From positions 1-64,000 of the forward strand of contig DASVWD010000264.1 in assembly GCA_036389795.1 (NCBI GenBank): DNA of 64,000 nucleotides. Direction: 5' to 3'. Shown piece by piece: positions 2,938-51,597 of the stretch (the first letter of the stretch is position 1; each line of letters opens with the position of its first letter). Source of the stretch: Longimicrobium sp. Lineage in GTDB: Bacteria; Gemmatimonadota; Gemmatimonadetes; Longimicrobiales; Longimicrobiaceae. The position numbers and the translations under genes are program-made. The notes under the pieces are model-generated. The model was not told where the DNA came from and made no database searches. It saw nothing but the letters and a program-made list of their open reading frames with translations.

Positions 2938-3278
2938 CCGGCCTCCTGCGCGGTTCGCATCACCTTGATGACCGCCCCGGCGAGCCGCTCCCAGTTCGCC
3001 GCCTCGACCTGGAGCTGCCTGCGGCCGGCCGGGGTCAGCCGGTAGAAGCGCGCCCGCTGGTTGTTCTCCGACGTGCCCCACTCCGACTCGATCCAGCCCT
3101 GCTGCTCGATGCGGTAGAGGGCCGGGTAGAGCGAGCCTTCCTCGACCCTGAGCACCTCGTCGGACATCTGCATGATGCGCTGCCCGACGCCGTAGCCGTG
3201 CAGCGGCCCCAGGGAGAGCGCCTTGAGCACCAGCATGTCGAGCGTCCCCTGCAGCAGCTTGGTGTTCGTCCTGGTCAC
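2934..3278 (-). CDS. PadR-family transcriptional regulator
   Basis: A 114-aa winged-helix repressor of the PadR family. It shows the typical order LLQGTLDMLVLKAL, then GPLHGYGVGQRI, then the wing motif EEGSLYPALYRIEQQGWI, then RARFYRLTPAGRRQL. The C-terminal helix is a short dimerisation helix (PadR-s1 type). It is the first gene of an operon with the ADOP permease, overlapping it by 4 bp. PadR plus ADOP is a recurrent pair in Acidobacteriota and Gemmatimonadota, and the regulator probably controls the permease and itself through the inverted repeat just upstream. The ligand cannot be deduced. Confidence 0.95.
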   Translation of the reverse strand: MTRTNTKLLQGTLDMLVLKALSLGPLHGYGVGQRIMQMSDEVLRVEEGSLYPALYRIEQQGWIESEWGTSENNQRARFYRLTPAGRRQLQVEAANWERLAGAVIKVMRTAQEAG

Positions 3279-3296
3279 CGCGCCTCCCGGGAAGCC

Positions 3297-3341
3297 ATAG
3301 ATGGTCTAGGACATAGTGCGGCGCTGGCCCTAGACTGTCAA
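3297..3341 (-). promoter_or_regulatory. Promoter and probable PadR operator
   Basis: On the minus strand a perfect -35 TTGACA (3341-3336) is followed after 17 bp by CACTAT (3318-3313). GTCTAGG at 3304-3310 and CCTAGAC at 3329-3335 form an inverted repeat around this core, suiting autoregulation by the PadR protein encoded 35 bp downstream. The binding role is inferred from position and symmetry. Confidence 0.6.
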
Positions 3342-3437
3342 GGGCCTCGGCCAGCGGGTGCCGGAGCGGCCTGATCCCTGCTGTCTTCACCCGCAGCCGA
3401 TCCTGTTCTCCACACCGTCAGCCACGGGAGGGATGAC

Positions 3438-46432: not shown

Positions 46433-47746
46433 CTACTCCACCCCGGCGCGCGGGAGGGTGAGGGTGAAGGTGGAGCCGCGGCCCTCCTCGCTGCGCACGC
46501 GCAGGTCGCCGCCCATCCCGCGCGCCAGGTCGCGGCTGATCGCCAGGCCCAGCCCCGTCCCCTCGGAGCGGCGCGTGCGGCTCATGTCCACCTGCACGAA
46601 CGGCTCGAACACCGACGCCTGCAGCTCGGGCGGGATGCCGATGCCGGTGTCGGCCACGCGCAGGTAGACCACGTCCGGACGCTCGGGGCGCGAGGCCGCG
46701 TTCACCGACACGCGGCCGCCCTGCGGGGTGAACTTGATGGCGTTGCTGAGCAGGTTGATCACGACCTGCTGCACCTTCTCGCGGTCGGCCCACGCCACCA
46801 CGCCGGGCTCCACTCCCACCTCGAGCGCCAGCCCCCGCGCGGCGAGCTGCGGCTCCACCATCGGCGCCACCGTGGCCAGGAGCTCCGCCAGGTCCACGTC
46901 CTCGAGCACGTACTCCACGCGCCCGGACTCGATGCGGGCCAGGTTCAGCACGTCGTTGATCAGCCGCAGCAGGTGCTGCTGGCTGCGCCCGATGCGGCCC
47001 AGCGCCAGGAGCTGCGCCTCGGTGACGGGGCCGTGGATCCCCATCTCCAGCAGCTGCACGTAGCCGGCGATGGCGTTCAGCGGGGTGCGCAGCTCGTGGC
47101 TCATCACCGCCAGGAAGCTGCTCTTGGCCCGGTTGGCCTCCTCGGCGGCGGCCCTCTGGCGCTCCAGCTCCCGGCCGTGCTCCACCAGCGCGCCGTTGGC
47201 GGCCTCCAGCTCCGTCGCCTGCTCCTGGAGGCGCTCCTGCTGGAGCTCCAGCTCCACCGCCTGCTCCTCGAGCAGCGCGTTGGCCCGGCGCAGCTCCGCC
47301 TCGCTGGCCTCGGCCGCGGCGCGCGCCCGTTCGGCCTCCTTCCGCGCCCGCAACAGCTCGTCCTCGAACTTCCGCCGCTCGACCACGCGCATGAGCACGC
47401 AGTCGTTGGCGAAGGCGCCGCCGCGCTCGCGCCGCGCCGCGTTGGCCAGCACGCCGACGTCGCCGCCGTCCTTCGCCCGGAGGAGGAGGAACACCTCCTC
47501 GGCGCGGCCGTGCAGGCGGACGAGGGGGAAGAAGTGCGTCTGGTAGAAGATGCGGCTGCCCGTGGTGAGGATGGCGTCGATCGGCCGGCCCTCCAGCTCG
47601 CCGCGGGCGTAGCCGAGCATCTCCGCCAGCGTGGCGTTGGCGGCGGTGATGGTGCCGTCGTCGGCGAACGAGACGAAGCCGCACGGGGCATGGTCCAGAA
47701 GCTCGCCCAGCGCGGCGCCGTCCGCGGCCGGGGTGGCGCGGGCCAT
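46433..47746 (-). CDS. PAS-domain sensor histidine kinase partnered with RsbQ-like hydrolase
   Basis: A 437-aa cytoplasmic kinase. The PAS domain spans about 12-120 (DHAPCGFVSFADDGTITAANATLAEMLGY, GSRIFYQTHFFPLVRL). A coiled coil at about 125-208 follows. The phosphoacceptor His217 is in FLAVMSHELRTPLNAI. The ATPase has N box VVINLLSNAIKFTPQGG, G1 VADTGIGIP, F box FEPFVQVD and G2 GTGLGLAI. No membrane segment is present. Its ATG overlaps the RsbQ-like stop by one base (TGATG). By analogy with RsbQ-RsbP, the hydrolase probably feeds a signal to this PAS domain. No response regulator is adjacent. Confidence 0.93.
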   Translation of the reverse strand: MARATPAADGAALGELLDHAPCGFVSFADDGTITAANATLAEMLGYARGELEGRPIDAILTTGSRIFYQTHFFPLVRLHGRAEEVFLLLRAKDGGDVGVLANAARRERGGAFANDCVLMRVVERRKFEDELLRARKEAERARAAAEASEAELRRANALLEEQAVELELQQERLQEQATELEAANGALVEHGRELERQRAAAEEANRAKSSFLAVMSHELRTPLNAIAGYVQLLEMGIHGPVTEAQLLALGRIGRSQQHLLRLINDVLNLARIESGRVEYVLEDVDLAELLATVAPMVEPQLAARGLALEVGVEPGVVAWADREKVQQVVINLLSNAIKFTPQGGRVSVNAASRPERPDVVYLRVADTGIGIPPELQASVFEPFVQVDMSRTRRSEGTGLGLAISRDLARGMGGDLRVRSEEGRGSTFTLTLPRAGVE

Positions 47747-48555
47747 CAGCCCGCGCGCGCCGGGTGGAGGTACTCCTGCATCAGCCGGATCGTCTCCTCC
47801 GGGTGGCTCATGTGCGGGCAGTGCCCGGTGGCGCTCATCACCTTCAGCGTGCTGCCGCGCAGCTCGCGGTGCAGGTAGTCGCCCACCTCCAGCGGCGCCA
47901 CCATGTCGTCGGTGCACTGCAGGATGAGCGAGGGCACCGTCACGTGCGCCAGGTCGGCGCGGTTGTCGGCCAGAAAGGTGGCCTCCGCGAAGCGGCGGGC
48001 GACCACGGGGTCGGTGGAGCAGAAGCTCTCCGTGAGCTCTTCCCCCAGCTCCGGGCGGTCGGGGTTCTTCATGATGGCGGGCGCCAGGAAGCCGGCCCAG
48101 CCGATGAAGTTGCGGTCCATCATCTCCAGCAGCCCCTCGATGTCGGCGGGCTCGAAGCCGCCCACGTACGGCGGGTCGTTCACGTAGCGCGGCGAGGGCC
48201 CGATCAGCACCAGCCGGTCGAAGCGCTCCGGCTCGCGGTTGGCCGCCAGCACCGCCACCATGCTGCTCACCGAGTGGCCGACCAGGACCACGTCGCGCAG
48301 GTCGAGGGCGTGCACCACGTCCAGCACGTCCTGCGCGTAGCCGCCCAAGGTGGAGTAGCGCCCGGCGTCCCACGCGCCCACGTCGCTCTTCCCCGCGCCC
48401 ACGTAGTCGAAGAGCACCACCCGGTAGTCGTCCTCGAACGCCGGCGCCACGAAGCGCCACATGTTCTGGTCGCACCCGAAGCCGTGCGCGAAGAGCATCG
48501 GCTGCGTGCCGCGCCCGGAGACCTTCACGTTGTTGCGCCGCAGGATGTCGGTCAC
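47746..48555 (-). CDS. rsbQ: RsbQ-like alpha/beta hydrolase
   Basis: A 269-aa alpha/beta hydrolase of the RsbQ/D14/KAI2 family, the same length as I recall for B. subtilis RsbQ. It has [37 protein letters not shown]-type sequence. The triad is Ser95 in GHSVSS, Asp217 and His245 in [32 protein letters not shown] follows the nucleophile region. GTG at 48555 is chosen because it aligns with the RsbQ start (TDILRRNNV); upstream in-frame codons have no family match. In Bacillus RsbQ, with RsbP (PAS plus phosphatase), senses energy stress. Confidence 0.93.
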
Positions 48556-48731
48556 GTTTCCGTCTTTGTCGAAGGGGATGGAGAAAGCCAAGCACCTCCG
48601 GCACCGCAAGCATCGTGCAGTACGGATGCGGTGCGGGCGCCTGCGCACAGCGCCCGGCGAGTGCTCATACTGTCGCAAAAGGAAACCTCGGACTATAATG
48701 CGTTCAATTTGTTCACCTTTCTCGGCGGGTC

Positions 48732-50030
48732 ATGAGCGCGCGTCCTCACCGGTCCCACGAACTCCAACCGCACGATCAGGAGCGTACGAGCCGATCCAGG
48801 GTGGCGGCCGCGCCCCGCATGCCGGCGTGGCGGGAGCCCTGGCGCATGGCCGACGAGCGGCTCCCGCGGGAAACCCGGTTCGTCGTCTGGCGCGTGCTCG
48901 CCGACTTCGAGCTCTGGACGGCGGAGCGGTCTCCGGACCTGTTCTGGCCGCGCGGCATCGGCTTCGTCCGAAGCCTGTACCCGGACGAGTTGAAGGGCGC
49001 GCTGAAGGCGCTGGAAGCGATCTGGATCAGCCCGCACCTGGTGGACGAGGGCAGGATGGCCGGCGCCTGCGAGGCGATCTGGCTGTGGGCGGAGGCGAGG
49101 GAGCACCTGGAGATCGCCCTGCAGTTCGCCGAGCTCGCCGCCAGGCTGGAGCCGGACCGGGCGGACCGGGCTTCCACGGCGGGGAGGCTGGCGAGGCGCC
49201 GCGGCGAGTTCGCGCGCGGGACCGTCTGGTTCGCGCGCGCGCTGAGGCAGGCGACCCGCGACAAGGACCTGATCAACAAGGCGATCGCCCAGCTGGGCTG
49301 GAGTGCGCTCGAACTGGAGCTGGGAAACCTGGGCCAAGCCATCCACCATGCCACGAAGGCGTTCCGGGCTGCGATGCGGGCTGGCAGGAGAAGCCTTGCA
49401 GCATCAGCTTCGCACGATCTAATGGCCTGCTACATCCACCGGGAGCGCTACGAGGAAGCTCTGATGCACTCGCGCAGCGCGGTGGCGATGTACAAGCTGG
49501 ACCATCCGCGCTTCCCGGGCCTCGCGCACGACGTCGCGGTCCTCTGGAGCCGGCTGGGATACCATTCGAGTGCTCTCGTTGTCTTCCAGATGATCCTGGC
49601 GGACATGCAGCGAGTGGAGGATCACACGACGGCCCTGGCCAACATCGCCAGGTCTGCCGCGGCGTGCAGGGACCGCGTGAGTTACCAGCGGGCGATGGAA
49701 GAGGCCCTGGCGGCAGTGAAGGCCAAAGCCCCGGTTCGGACCTCGACCTACTTCCATCTCGCATGGGCAGCCCGCACCTACGAAGACTGGACTCTGGCCG
49801 AGAAGCTCGCGAAGGCGTATCTCGCCCGCTGCCCCGACACGCACAAGCCGCGCGCACGGAAGCTCCTCGAGGAGATCTGCGAGCGAAAGCCCGGGGAGGC
49901 GGACATCATCCCTGATCCGGGATCGGAACTCGAGCAGTCTCGTACGACGCTGCTTCGGAAGCTGCGGAGGCGTGCCGCCTCAGGGCCTGACGCGGCGACG
50001 CCCCCACCTGAGCGCTACCCCCTCGGCTAA
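48732..50030 (+). CDS. TPR protein, possible peptide-sensing regulator
   Basis: A 432-aa soluble all-helical protein. After a basic start, helical TPR-like pairs run from about residue 110 to 395: AREHLEIALQFAELAARLEPDRA, AIAQLGWSALELELGNLGQAIHHATKAFRA, HRERYEEALMHSRSAVAMYKL, WTLAEKLAKAYLARCPD. No DNA-binding, catalytic or membrane element is evident. Its 3' end overlaps by 4 bp the stop of a convergent mini-lipoprotein gene. The arrangement recalls Rap/Phr-like pairs of TPR receptor and exported peptide, but no relation to that family is shown. Confidence 0.78.
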   Translation: MSARPHRSHELQPHDQERTSRSRVAAAPRMPAWREPWRMADERLPRETRFVVWRVLADFELWTAERSPDLFWPRGIGFVRSLYPDELKGALKALEAIWISPHLVDEGRMAGACEAIWLWAEAREHLEIALQFAELAARLEPDRADRASTAGRLARRRGEFARGTVWFARALRQATRDKDLINKAIAQLGWSALELELGNLGQAIHHATKAFRAAMRAGRRSLAASASHDLMACYIHRERYEEALMHSRSAVAMYKLDHPRFPGLAHDVAVLWSRLGYHSSALVVFQMILADMQRVEDHTTALANIARSAAACRDRVSYQRAMEEALAAVKAKAPVRTSTYFHLAWAARTYEDWTLAEKLAKAYLARCPDTHKPRARKLLEEICERKPGEADIIPDPGSELEQSRTTLLRKLRRRAASGPDAATPPPERYPLG

Positions 50031-50218
50031 TAGCCGCTGCCCACCGTGCCGCCGATCTTGGGCGTGGTGTCCGGTGGGGTAGTGTTGTAGCCACTCCCGA
50101 CCATCCCCGTCTCCATTCTCGCCTCACCACCCGACAACTCTGCCGGCGCGGTGGAGTTGCCGCACGCACCGACACCGAGCAGCGCCAGGCAGGCCACGAC
50201 CGTCGCGATCCTCCTCAT
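50027..50218 (-). CDS. Mini-lipoprotein with repeated G-x-VGSGY motif
   Basis: A 63-aa protein. The leader ATVVACLALLGVGAC (lipobox GVGAC) is followed by a short acidic/Pro segment and two copies of a motif: GMVGSGYNTTPPDTT and, at the very C-terminus, GTVGSGY. ATG at 50218 has GGAGG 5 nt upstream. The codons for the two GSGY copies differ (AGT GGC TAC and AGC GGC TAT), so this is not a recent DNA duplication. Exported and short, it could be a peptide-signal precursor; the neighbouring TPR gene supports that idea only by position. Confidence 0.75.
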   Translation of the reverse strand: MRRIATVVACLALLGVGACGNSTAPAELSGGEARMETGMVGSGYNTTPPDTTPKIGGTVGSGY

Positions 50219-50467
50219 TCCTTCCTCCATCTTTGGGGTTCACATCGACTTGCACGCGCAGGACGCCGGGCGTGCGAGTTGGGACAGCAATGGTAGTATA
50301 CAGGTTGGACACGCTCAGGGGGACAGGATGTGTGGTATCCTGGCGAGCGGGCGTACCGCACTCCCTGGCGGCGTCGGCACGATCGGCGGCAAAGCTTTGA
50401 TGTGCTGGAATGCGGGTCGGTATCCTGGCGCCAGGAAAGCGGTCCACCACGCGCCAGGAGGCGGAAA

Positions 50468-51121
50468 ATGGGGAGGAGGAAGATCGATGCCGACGAGGAG
50501 GAGGTGCTCGCGGTACTGAGCGAGGCGGCGGCGGAGGGCAGGGGCTGGAAGCGGGGCCGGGTGCGAGGCTGGCTGCTGGGAAGCGAGATCAACGGCGCCA
50601 CGGGAAGCCCGGTCGCGTCCGACTCGTGCCAGCGCCTGCGCAAGGCGGGGCTCGTGCGCGGAGAGGCCGTGTGGGATCCCGGCCGGCTCGACCGCCCCAT
50701 GGTCCTGTGGCGCATCACCCGGCGCGGCGAGGAGGAGATCGCCGGGAAGCACGGGCGGACGCCCGCGCAGCTCCCGGTCCCCCGCGTGGGAGCGCGGGAC
50801 GACCGCGTGATCTACGTCTCGCGCGAGGTGTGGCGGTGCCTGGCGGCGCTGCAGGAGAACGACGGATGGGTGCGTTGGGTCGAGCTGCAGGAGCAGGTGG
50901 AGCGGCGATACCGTGAGTGGGCGCACCTGGACGATGTCCGCCTGCTGGTCCGGCGCGGGCTGGCGGAGCGAGAGGCGAGGCCCGGGGAGCGCAGGTCGGT
51001 CCTGTGGCTTCGCGCAACGGACCGTGGGCGCGGGGTGAGTCTGCTGGACGGAAGGACGAGCCCGGCCCTCGTCCAGATCCGCCTTCCGCCCGAGGGGGAC
51101 GAGCGCGGGAGGGAGGGATGA
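50468..51121 (+). CDS. Winged-helix-like DNA-binding protein, unknown
   Basis: A 217-aa basic protein. Two related helical blocks can be seen: EEVLAVLSEAAAEGRGWKRGRVRGWLLGS, then CQRLRKAGLVRGEAVW and RRGEEEIAGKHG, and again EVWRCLAALQENDGWVRWVELQEQVERR, then VRLLVRRGLAEREAR. This is the spacing of tandem winged helices; the match is by pattern and not to a named family. AGGAGG lies 6 nt before ATG. It overlaps the next gene by 4 bp (ATGA), so the two are coupled. Confidence 0.65.
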   Translation: MGRRKIDADEEEVLAVLSEAAAEGRGWKRGRVRGWLLGSEINGATGSPVASDSCQRLRKAGLVRGEAVWDPGRLDRPMVLWRITRRGEEEIAGKHGRTPAQLPVPRVGARDDRVIYVSREVWRCLAALQENDGWVRWVELQEQVERRYREWAHLDDVRLLVRRGLAEREARPGERRSVLWLRATDRGRGVSLLDGRTSPALVQIRLPPEGDERGREG

Positions 51122-51597
51122 CCGCCCCTCCCGCGGGTCACCCGCTCGTCTCGCTGCTGCTCCAGAGCCGGGCCACGCCAGAGTTTTTCCGCCGTTACCT
51201 GGCGGATGCCGTCGCCAGCAGGCGCATCAGCAGGAAGGGGCTCGGGGAGCAGATCGGGATCAGCAGGCAGGCCGTCGCGGATTTCCTTACGGGGCGCGAG
51301 CCGACGGCGGAGACGCTCCGGAAGATGCGCGGGTGGCTCGTGTCCGACGCCTTGGAGCGGGAAGACGACGGGCCGCCCGAAGCCTACCTGGTGGCCGCCG
51401 GCATCCTCCTGCGTGACTGCCGTGGGGAGGATGCCGCGCAGGCGCTGTCCGAGGTGCTGGAGGTGGTCGAGAGGGCGGCGGAACGCGCGGGAGAGCCCGT
51501 ACCGGAATGGATCGCGGAGGTGCGGCGCGAGGCGGGAATCGGGGGCGAAGGCCCCCCGTTGCGCCGCCGGGCGAGAGGGAGAGGCCCGGCGGCATGA
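51118..51597 (+). CDS. XRE-like helix-turn-helix protein
   Basis: A 159-aa protein. A helix-turn-helix near residues 35-70 (RRISRKGLGEQIGISRQAVADFLTGREPTAETLRKMRGWL) shows the Xre/Cro pattern with QAVADFL in the recognition helix. The remainder is helical (LRDCRGEDAAQALSEVLEVVERAAERAG) with a basic tail. It begins in the ATGA overlap with the winged-helix-like gene. The pair may form a small regulatory operon; the targets are not evident. Confidence 0.78.
   Translation: MTAPPAGHPLVSLLLQSRATPEFFRRYLADAVASRRISRKGLGEQIGISRQAVADFLTGREPTAETLRKMRGWLVSDALEREDDGPPEAYLVAAGILLRDCRGEDAAQALSEVLEVVERAAERAGEPVPEWIAEVRREAGIGGEGPPLRRRARGRGPAA

Follow-up and report, generated by a model that had tools for sequence, protein, structure and literature searches.

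We propose that two convergent genes in a 64,000-nucleotide stretch of Longimicrobium sp. DNA (hereafter the window) probably form one of ∼17 parallel precursor/receptor pairs in the genome, working like the RRNPP (Rap-Phr-type) peptide signalling systems. One gene encodes a tetratricopeptide repeat (TPR) protein and the other a mini-lipoprotein, and their features are collected in Table 1. The first-pass annotation had described the two open reading frames (ORFs), their tail-to-tail overlap by 4 bp, a lipobox and two G-x-VGSGY motifs, one of them at the very C-terminus, and all of these were confirmed from the sequence. The TPR gene ends with TAA at 50028-50030 and the mini-lipoprotein gene with TAG at 50027-50029 on the minus strand.

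Table 1. Features of the TPR/mini-lipoprotein locus (positions are those of the window).
Feature	Position	Strand	Evidence
TPR protein, 432 aa, candidate cytoplasmic peptide receptor	48732..50030	+	ORF, Pfam, AlphaFold2 model
TATAAT, possible -10 element of TPR gene	48694..48699	+	Consensus match only
N-terminal helical region (residues 46-99), ahead of TPR superhelix	48867..49028	+	Model; RapH/RapF structural alignments
TPR superhelix (residues 106-384), paired helices	49047..49883	+	AlphaFold2 model
C-terminal helix (residues 396-417)	49917..49982	+	AlphaFold2 model
Overlap of the two stop codons (CTAA), 4 bp	50027..50030	.	Sequence
Mini-lipoprotein gene, 63 aa, candidate peptide precursor	50027..50218	-	ORF; recurs convergent with TPR paralogues
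Second core TVGSGY (residues 58-63), very C-terminus	50030..50047	-	Sequence
First core MVGSGY (residues 39-44)	50087..50104	-	Sequence
Lipoprotein signal peptide and lipobox cysteine (residues 1-19, V-G-A-C)	50162..50218	-	Sequence
Shine-Dalgarno-like GGAGGAAGG before mini-lipoprotein start	50220..50229	-	Sequence

The mini-lipoprotein is MRRIATVVACLALLGVGACGNSTAPAELSGGEARMETGMVGSGYNTTPPDTTPKIGGTVGSGY, with the lipobox cysteine at residue 19. The 63-aa product was favoured over a 67-aa alternative because the Shine-Dalgarno-like GGAGGAAGG lies just upstream of the start at 50218. It consists of a charged n-region, a hydrophobic stretch, the lipobox cysteine, a linker rich in P, T, and E, and the two cores. 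The segment MRRIATVVACLALLGVGA-C agrees with the bacterial lipoprotein signature (positive n-region, hydrophobic h-region, invariant Cys), and in the family alignment of the mini-lipoproteins the lipobox Cys is invariant and the Ala at -1 nearly so. A sub-threshold match to LptM was confined to the signal peptide and identity with LptM was rejected. By DNA-pattern search, DNA encoding the G-x-VGSGY motif was found at only these two sites in the 7.5-Mb genome. The two VGSGY copies are equal at all five residues and differ synonymously at four of the five codons, which points to selection on the predicted peptide rather than recent duplication.

The TPR partner is, as judged from its sequence and model, a soluble and all-helical protein without a helix-turn-helix (HTH): no signal peptide was seen by inspection and no HTH was found in the AlphaFold2 model (pLDDT 83, pTM 0.77). 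The earlier TPR label is correct; the window copy matches Pfam TPR_12 with an E value of 1.6e-5, which alone is below the curated cut-off, and 18 of the 21 paralogues in the same genome match TPR_12. Neither window protein belongs to a PADLOC, NCBIfam, or Pfam family above cut-off, the TPR matches being sub-threshold only. The model has a disordered start, helices within residues 46-99 (46-65, 76-80, and 85-99, at lower confidence in this part), the superhelix, in which W119, H228, and D267 are conserved, and a C-terminal helix.

We found 21 TPR paralogues in the Longimicrobium genome by single-sequence search (24-34% identity, window copy included) and 25 by profile search, spread over many contigs. 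At 17 of the 21, a short lipobox ORF converges on the 3' end of the TPR gene. Most of these mini-lipoproteins carry a core matching GGGx[LMIF]GSGx, either internally or as their C-terminal end, and its glycine core is mostly G-S-G-x. Several carry more than one core (GLGFGSGH twice, GYGMGSGS twice, five GSGN-type cores in locus L007), up to 5-6 per precursor in the family. The synonymous codons of the VGSGY copies and the convergence at 17 of 21 paralogues indicate that the arrangement in the window is not due to chance. As side observations, one TPR gene (L019) has two similar 46-aa mini-lipoproteins in tandem (2702-2842 and 3227-3367), ending in GSGH and GSDH, and clusters of two to four TPR genes with mini-lipoproteins are present at C215:5600-13000 and C179:12000-17200 of the Longimicrobium genome, suggesting local duplication as a source of new pairs.

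The TPR family is present in all 21 searched genomes of the same GTDB family, at 2-25 copies each, and in some genomes of a sister family; those relatives that carry a name are Gemmatimonadota assemblies, Longimicrobium sp. among them. To 143 non-redundant loci of the Longimicrobium and related genomes with enough 3' sequence we applied a strict detector that required an ATG start, a lipobox, and a core. It was positive at 96 of the 143 convergent TPR 3' ends, a lower bound as several further loci have a mini-lipoprotein that was missed by the detector and found by hand. The control rate was 0-0.7% overall (1/143 downstream on the same strand, 0/35 further downstream, and 1/309 each for antisense and sense positions inside the gene). 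The TPR paralogues are about 400-470 aa long and most mini-lipoproteins 42-96 aa including the signal. An overlap of 4 bp is the commonest single spacing, and nearly all others fall between -52 and +273 bp. A Shine-Dalgarno-like site precedes 88 of 105 mini-lipoproteins; no convincing shared -35/-10 pair was found upstream of them (4/113, compared to 1.7 in shuffles). In one member of the window's own family (L129) the tail consists of four NQGTYGPKV copies. Certain TPR clades lack a mini-lipoprotein altogether, e.g., the L005 clade, and in another clade (L013, L132, L144, and L151) its place is taken by a different, larger lipoprotein of about 180-207 aa, likewise convergent with the TPR gene, with the motif ADAR...GPLxxDVxSFxGG.

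Tiny lipoproteins and convergent, sometimes overlapping genes would also be expected of a small entericidin-like lipoprotein toxin that is restrained by the TPR protein or by convergent antisense transcription. One mini-lipoprotein with a tail ending in PW matches entericidin B weakly, over the signal peptide only (E 0.0084, far below the cut-off). Entericidin-type homology over the mature part was not found, the window mini-lipoprotein has no NCBIfam entericidin match, and PADLOC matched neither window protein. The spacing, from -52 to more than 100 bp, shows that the overlap itself is not conserved, and conserved, repeated C-terminal peptides are to our knowledge not a feature of entericidins. 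We regard a toxin as very unlikely.

Next, we examined selection on the cores and their co-variation with the TPR proteins. Within the multi-core precursors the repeat codons differ and the residues are kept (7/8 codons for GLGFGSGH and 6/7 for GPGLGSG). Between orthologues, pN/pS was lowest for the signal peptide (0.41), followed by the core (0.47) and the linker (0.58); the core is only slightly more constrained than the linker, a weak difference. Signal-peptide distances track TPR distances (Mantel r 0.44, with 0 of 5000 permutations as high), which is co-inheritance, and for whole-core distances the relation is not significant (r 0.08, equalled or exceeded by 465 of 5000 permutations). We compared the residue that follows GSG between each mini-lipoprotein and the one paired with the nearest relative of its TPR protein; it is identical in 27 of 82 cases versus 11.6 expected (p = 0.0002; a post hoc test against shuffled labels, with relatives closer than 1.0 substitution per site skipped), and other distance cut-offs gave p ≤ 0.006; shared ancestry contributes to this concordance. 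The closest relative of the window TPR protein (L173, 40.5% identity, from another genus) is the only other GSGY carrier, with several copies.

Remote TPR homologues were detected in other families of the class (profile E values 1e-10 to 1e-30; profile-profile probability of 99.6% with the window TPR family). A profile of these homologues recruited 24 loci, in a group that we infer to be Gemmatimonadaceae, and a convergent mini-lipoprotein is present at 21 of the 24. Their tails are unlike GSG and unlike one another, and many are in perfect tandem: NFVNPNV or DFVNPHI/V in 2-4 copies, four copies each of DYVNPLG, DFVNPNA, or APTLPW, and single C-terminal D-T-L-P-W-N, D-T-I-P-W-V, or D-V-K-P-W-G (pattern D-[TSV]-x-P-W-x). 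Other families of the class have GHQGSGT in two copies and GFPTTGN. Since the tails differ between lineages while the pairing stays, the pairing must predate the present tail sequences. The first-pass annotation had staked its proposal on such pairs existing elsewhere, and they recur, at 17/21, at least 96/143, and 21/24 loci. Two of the remote homologues (L074 and L076), whose convergent mini-lipoproteins have the GFPTTGN tail, carry a long extra N-terminal domain that is GAF-like by eye. Outside the phylum, a contig scan with a single pattern from an alignment subset gave two weak actinobacterial matches only, and both were rejected as family members, being multidomain TPR proteins without the pair.

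Could the recurrence reflect no more than a conserved order of two functionally unlinked genes? The difference between 96/143 and the 0-0.7% at control positions argues against this, as do the pairing in several families of the class with independently changed tails and the scattering of the paralogous loci over many contigs. We consider it extremely improbable.

At 23 of the 24 remote loci, the gene of a ∼265-aa AraC-type HTH protein (HTH_18, E 1e-13 to 1e-17) follows past the mini-lipoprotein on the strand of the TPR gene. In the model of a Longimicrobiaceae-type member its N-terminal domain has a (beta-alpha)5 receiver-like fold, and the nearest solved folds to the model were FixJ, StyR, NarL, and AraC-type DNA-binding domains. 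The phospho-acceptor position is seemingly Asp in many members and Asn or another residue in the rest, as estimated by a rough motif count. Among 123 loci from other genomes in the window's family and the sister family, many of them truncated on the 3' side, 49 have the regulator after the TPR gene. In the Longimicrobium genome 7 of 21 loci have it, and 7 of the 9 regulator copies adjoin a TPR gene. One of the two copies not by a known TPR gene (L232, C241:41417-42232) lies beside a gene resembling a non-ribosomal peptide synthetase (NRPS) by eye. In the L005 clade (L034-L042 and relatives), found in many genomes, the regulator is directly downstream of a TPR gene without a mini-lipoprotein, and this TPR protein is possibly a fixed or peptide-independent copy.

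The window locus has the mini-lipoprotein and no receiver-like/AraC regulator; the genes downstream of the pair encode a winged-helix protein with a weak MarR-like match and a small HTH_3 protein. The latter (51118-51594, plus strand) has ∼18 divergent copies in the genome, and several copies of its family are found near TPR loci, e.g., on contigs C39, C179, C215, and C285, at no fixed position. On the other side of the pair, at 46433-48678 on the minus strand, an alpha/beta hydrolase gene is followed by a PAS-histidine-kinase-like gene (kinase by eye only), reminiscent of RsbQ-RsbP pairs.

The regulator linkage, the lineage-specific tails, and the small difference in constraint between core and linker also bear on the possibility that the mini-lipoprotein has an envelope job of its own, as an adhesive or structural protein with glycine, NPNV, or PW repeats or as a surface tether, and that the TPR protein is an assembly, sorting, or regulatory partner which recognizes the repeats only to handle or count them. 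TPR proteins are often chaperones for short C-terminal motifs, tail repeats occur in structural surface proteins too, and the cores are only mildly more conserved than the linkers. However, the genes lie on opposite strands and would be driven by separate promoters instead of forming an operon. Most precursors have just 42-96 residues including the signal, tails of completely different chemistry go with the TPR protein in different lineages, and a linked receiver-like/AraC regulator speaks for a role in gene control. We find an envelope role quite unlikely.

Solved structures matching the TPR model were ranked by VIA-align on the list obtained from Foldseek. The best match was LGN (Z 22.5), followed by RapI (Z 20.7), the RapH-Spo0F complex (Z 20.6; 320 residues aligned, starting at model residue 45), pLS20 Rap-Phr* (Z 20.5), phi3T Rap (Z 19.9), MalT domain III (Z 19.7), RapF (Z 19.1), and NprR (Z 18.0). 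Rap proteins have a 3-helix bundle ahead of their TPRs, and the alignments to RapH and RapF begin at model residue 45-47 and cover the N-terminal helical region, which is modelled with lower confidence. We did not count the top rank of LGN for or against a kinship with Rap. Because the Z differences are small and LGN and MalT domain III fit as well as the Raps, the fold alone is generic, and Rap chains were absent among the 60 sequence-profile matches listed. What the model says is that the window protein would have a superhelix of the peptide-binding type, Rap-sized and Rap-like, and not that it is a 'Rap'. A conserved Asn fixes the peptide backbone in such receptors, Asn227 in RapF (PMC3601957). 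The invariant D267 of the window family aligns with an invariant N262 of the remote homologues, and this position may be the counterpart of that Asn, which we take as a lead only.

In the favoured precursor/receptor reading, the precursor would be exported via its Sec/lipobox signal and lipid-anchored, and proteases would free a short core peptide from it. The peptide, from the same cell or from neighbours, would re-enter the cytoplasm via an oligopeptide permease (five OppA-type binding proteins are present in the genome) and would bind the concave groove of the TPR superhelix. At many sister loci the target of the TPR protein would be the adjacent receiver-like/AraC-HTH regulator, as suggested by gene linkage and comparable to the response regulators controlled by Raps. 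As there is no AraC-type neighbour at the window locus, the window TPR protein would have to act on an unlinked target encoded elsewhere. The first-pass annotation had proposed the mini-lipoprotein as the source of a signalling peptide read by the TPR protein; the recurrent pairing supports this in part, and cutting, release, re-import, and binding are steps that we infer. The reading also gains from the perfect C-terminal tandem repeats, whose residues are conserved, the co-variation of the last residue with the TPR protein, the Raps among the best structural matches, and the response-regulator-like third gene in many loci. Against it, the GSG core varies rather little among the paralogues if the signals are to be private, and a lipid-anchored precursor is unusual for RRNPP systems.

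The main rival keeps the binding and drops the export. Here the TPR protein would be an export or envelope sensor that binds the C-terminal core of the unexported precursor in the cytoplasm, without cell-cell signalling; when lipoprotein export slows, the precursor would pile up and switch the TPR protein and its regulator. With a TPR protein lacking a signal peptide by inspection and a precursor made in the same compartment, neither protease nor importer is needed, the C-terminal cores stay accessible before export, and the signal peptides co-vary with the TPR proteins, as noted above. Yet one sensor would suffice, and the genome has ∼17 pairs whose cores differ; excision into several peptides also accounts better for the perfect 6-10-residue tandem repeats. 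We judge the sensor unlikely.

We compared the pair with known systems. The published RRNPP signature comprises five criteria: a precursor of 10-100 aa, Sec export, a receptor of 250-500 aa, TPRs, and adjacency within -60 to 400 bp (PMC10075063). The window pair agrees with four of them, having a 63-aa precursor, a 432-aa receptor, TPRs in the receptor, and a distance of -4 bp; export is predicted only in the form of a lipoprotein-type Sec signal (n-region, h-region, and lipobox by pattern) in place of a plain signal. Since homology to RRNPP receptors and the peptide-fixing Asn are not established, we did not file the pair as an RRNPP member. Like Rap-Phr of Bacillus, it combines a TPR protein that lacks an HTH, is similar in size, and has a helical region near its N-terminus in the model with a small neighbouring precursor that is predicted to be exported and carries its peptide at the C-terminus and in internal repeats. 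Multi-copy paralogy and, here by gene linkage only, a response-regulator-type target are further shared traits. Unlike Rap-Phr, it comes from a diderm phylum, the precursor has a lipobox instead of a plain Sec signal, the genes are convergent, the cores are rich in Gly/Ser or NP/PW, and no sequence homology to Rap is established.

The individual peculiarities of the pairs, i.e., repeated pheromones, numerous pairs per genome, and convergent overlap, each have a precedent in Bacillota. Group III Rgg/SHP of streptococci resembles the window pair in that the two genes are transcribed towards each other and the peptide gene extends into the 3' end of the receptor gene (PMC13361665). SHP is exported by PptAB and not by Sec (PMC10075063), and Rgg has an HTH, whereas the TPR protein here has none and a separate AraC-type regulator lies by the pair in many loci. 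AloR-AloP of Paenibacillus is reported to reach more than 25 receptor-peptide pairs in one genome (PMC7425212) and likewise includes receptors without a findable peptide, but AloR has an HTH, the hosts are Gram-positive, and the genes are co-directional. Phr3T and Phr105 carry several pheromone copies per precursor, kept by selection (PMC11343458); these are not lipoproteins, in contrast to the precursors described here with their up to 5-6 cores. Peptide signalling through cytoplasmic TPR proteins has been described for Bacillota, to which the published detector and survey were confined (PMC10075063; PMC9765709), and we found no report of RRNPP-type signalling in Gemmatimonadota in the literature searched.

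A wider reading, to which we give slightly less than an even chance, is a class- or phylum-wide peptide-signalling network in the diderm Gemmatimonadota, which either arose separately from the RRNPP systems of Bacillota or branched off from them very early, with repeated lipidated pheromone cores, Rap-like TPR readers, and a receiver-like AraC-type output, and with up to ∼20 channels in Longimicrobiaceae-type genomes. The pairs offer testable peptides (GTVGSGY, NFVNPNV, DYVNPLG, and KDTLPWN) together with the receptors that match them, and a candidate output regulator is suggested by the three-gene loci. If the reading is true, an abundant soil phylum would use a multi-channel peptide language with lipidated precursors and multi-copy pheromones, and outer-membrane bacteria may run many parallel peptide channels such as are known in Gram-positive bacteria alone.
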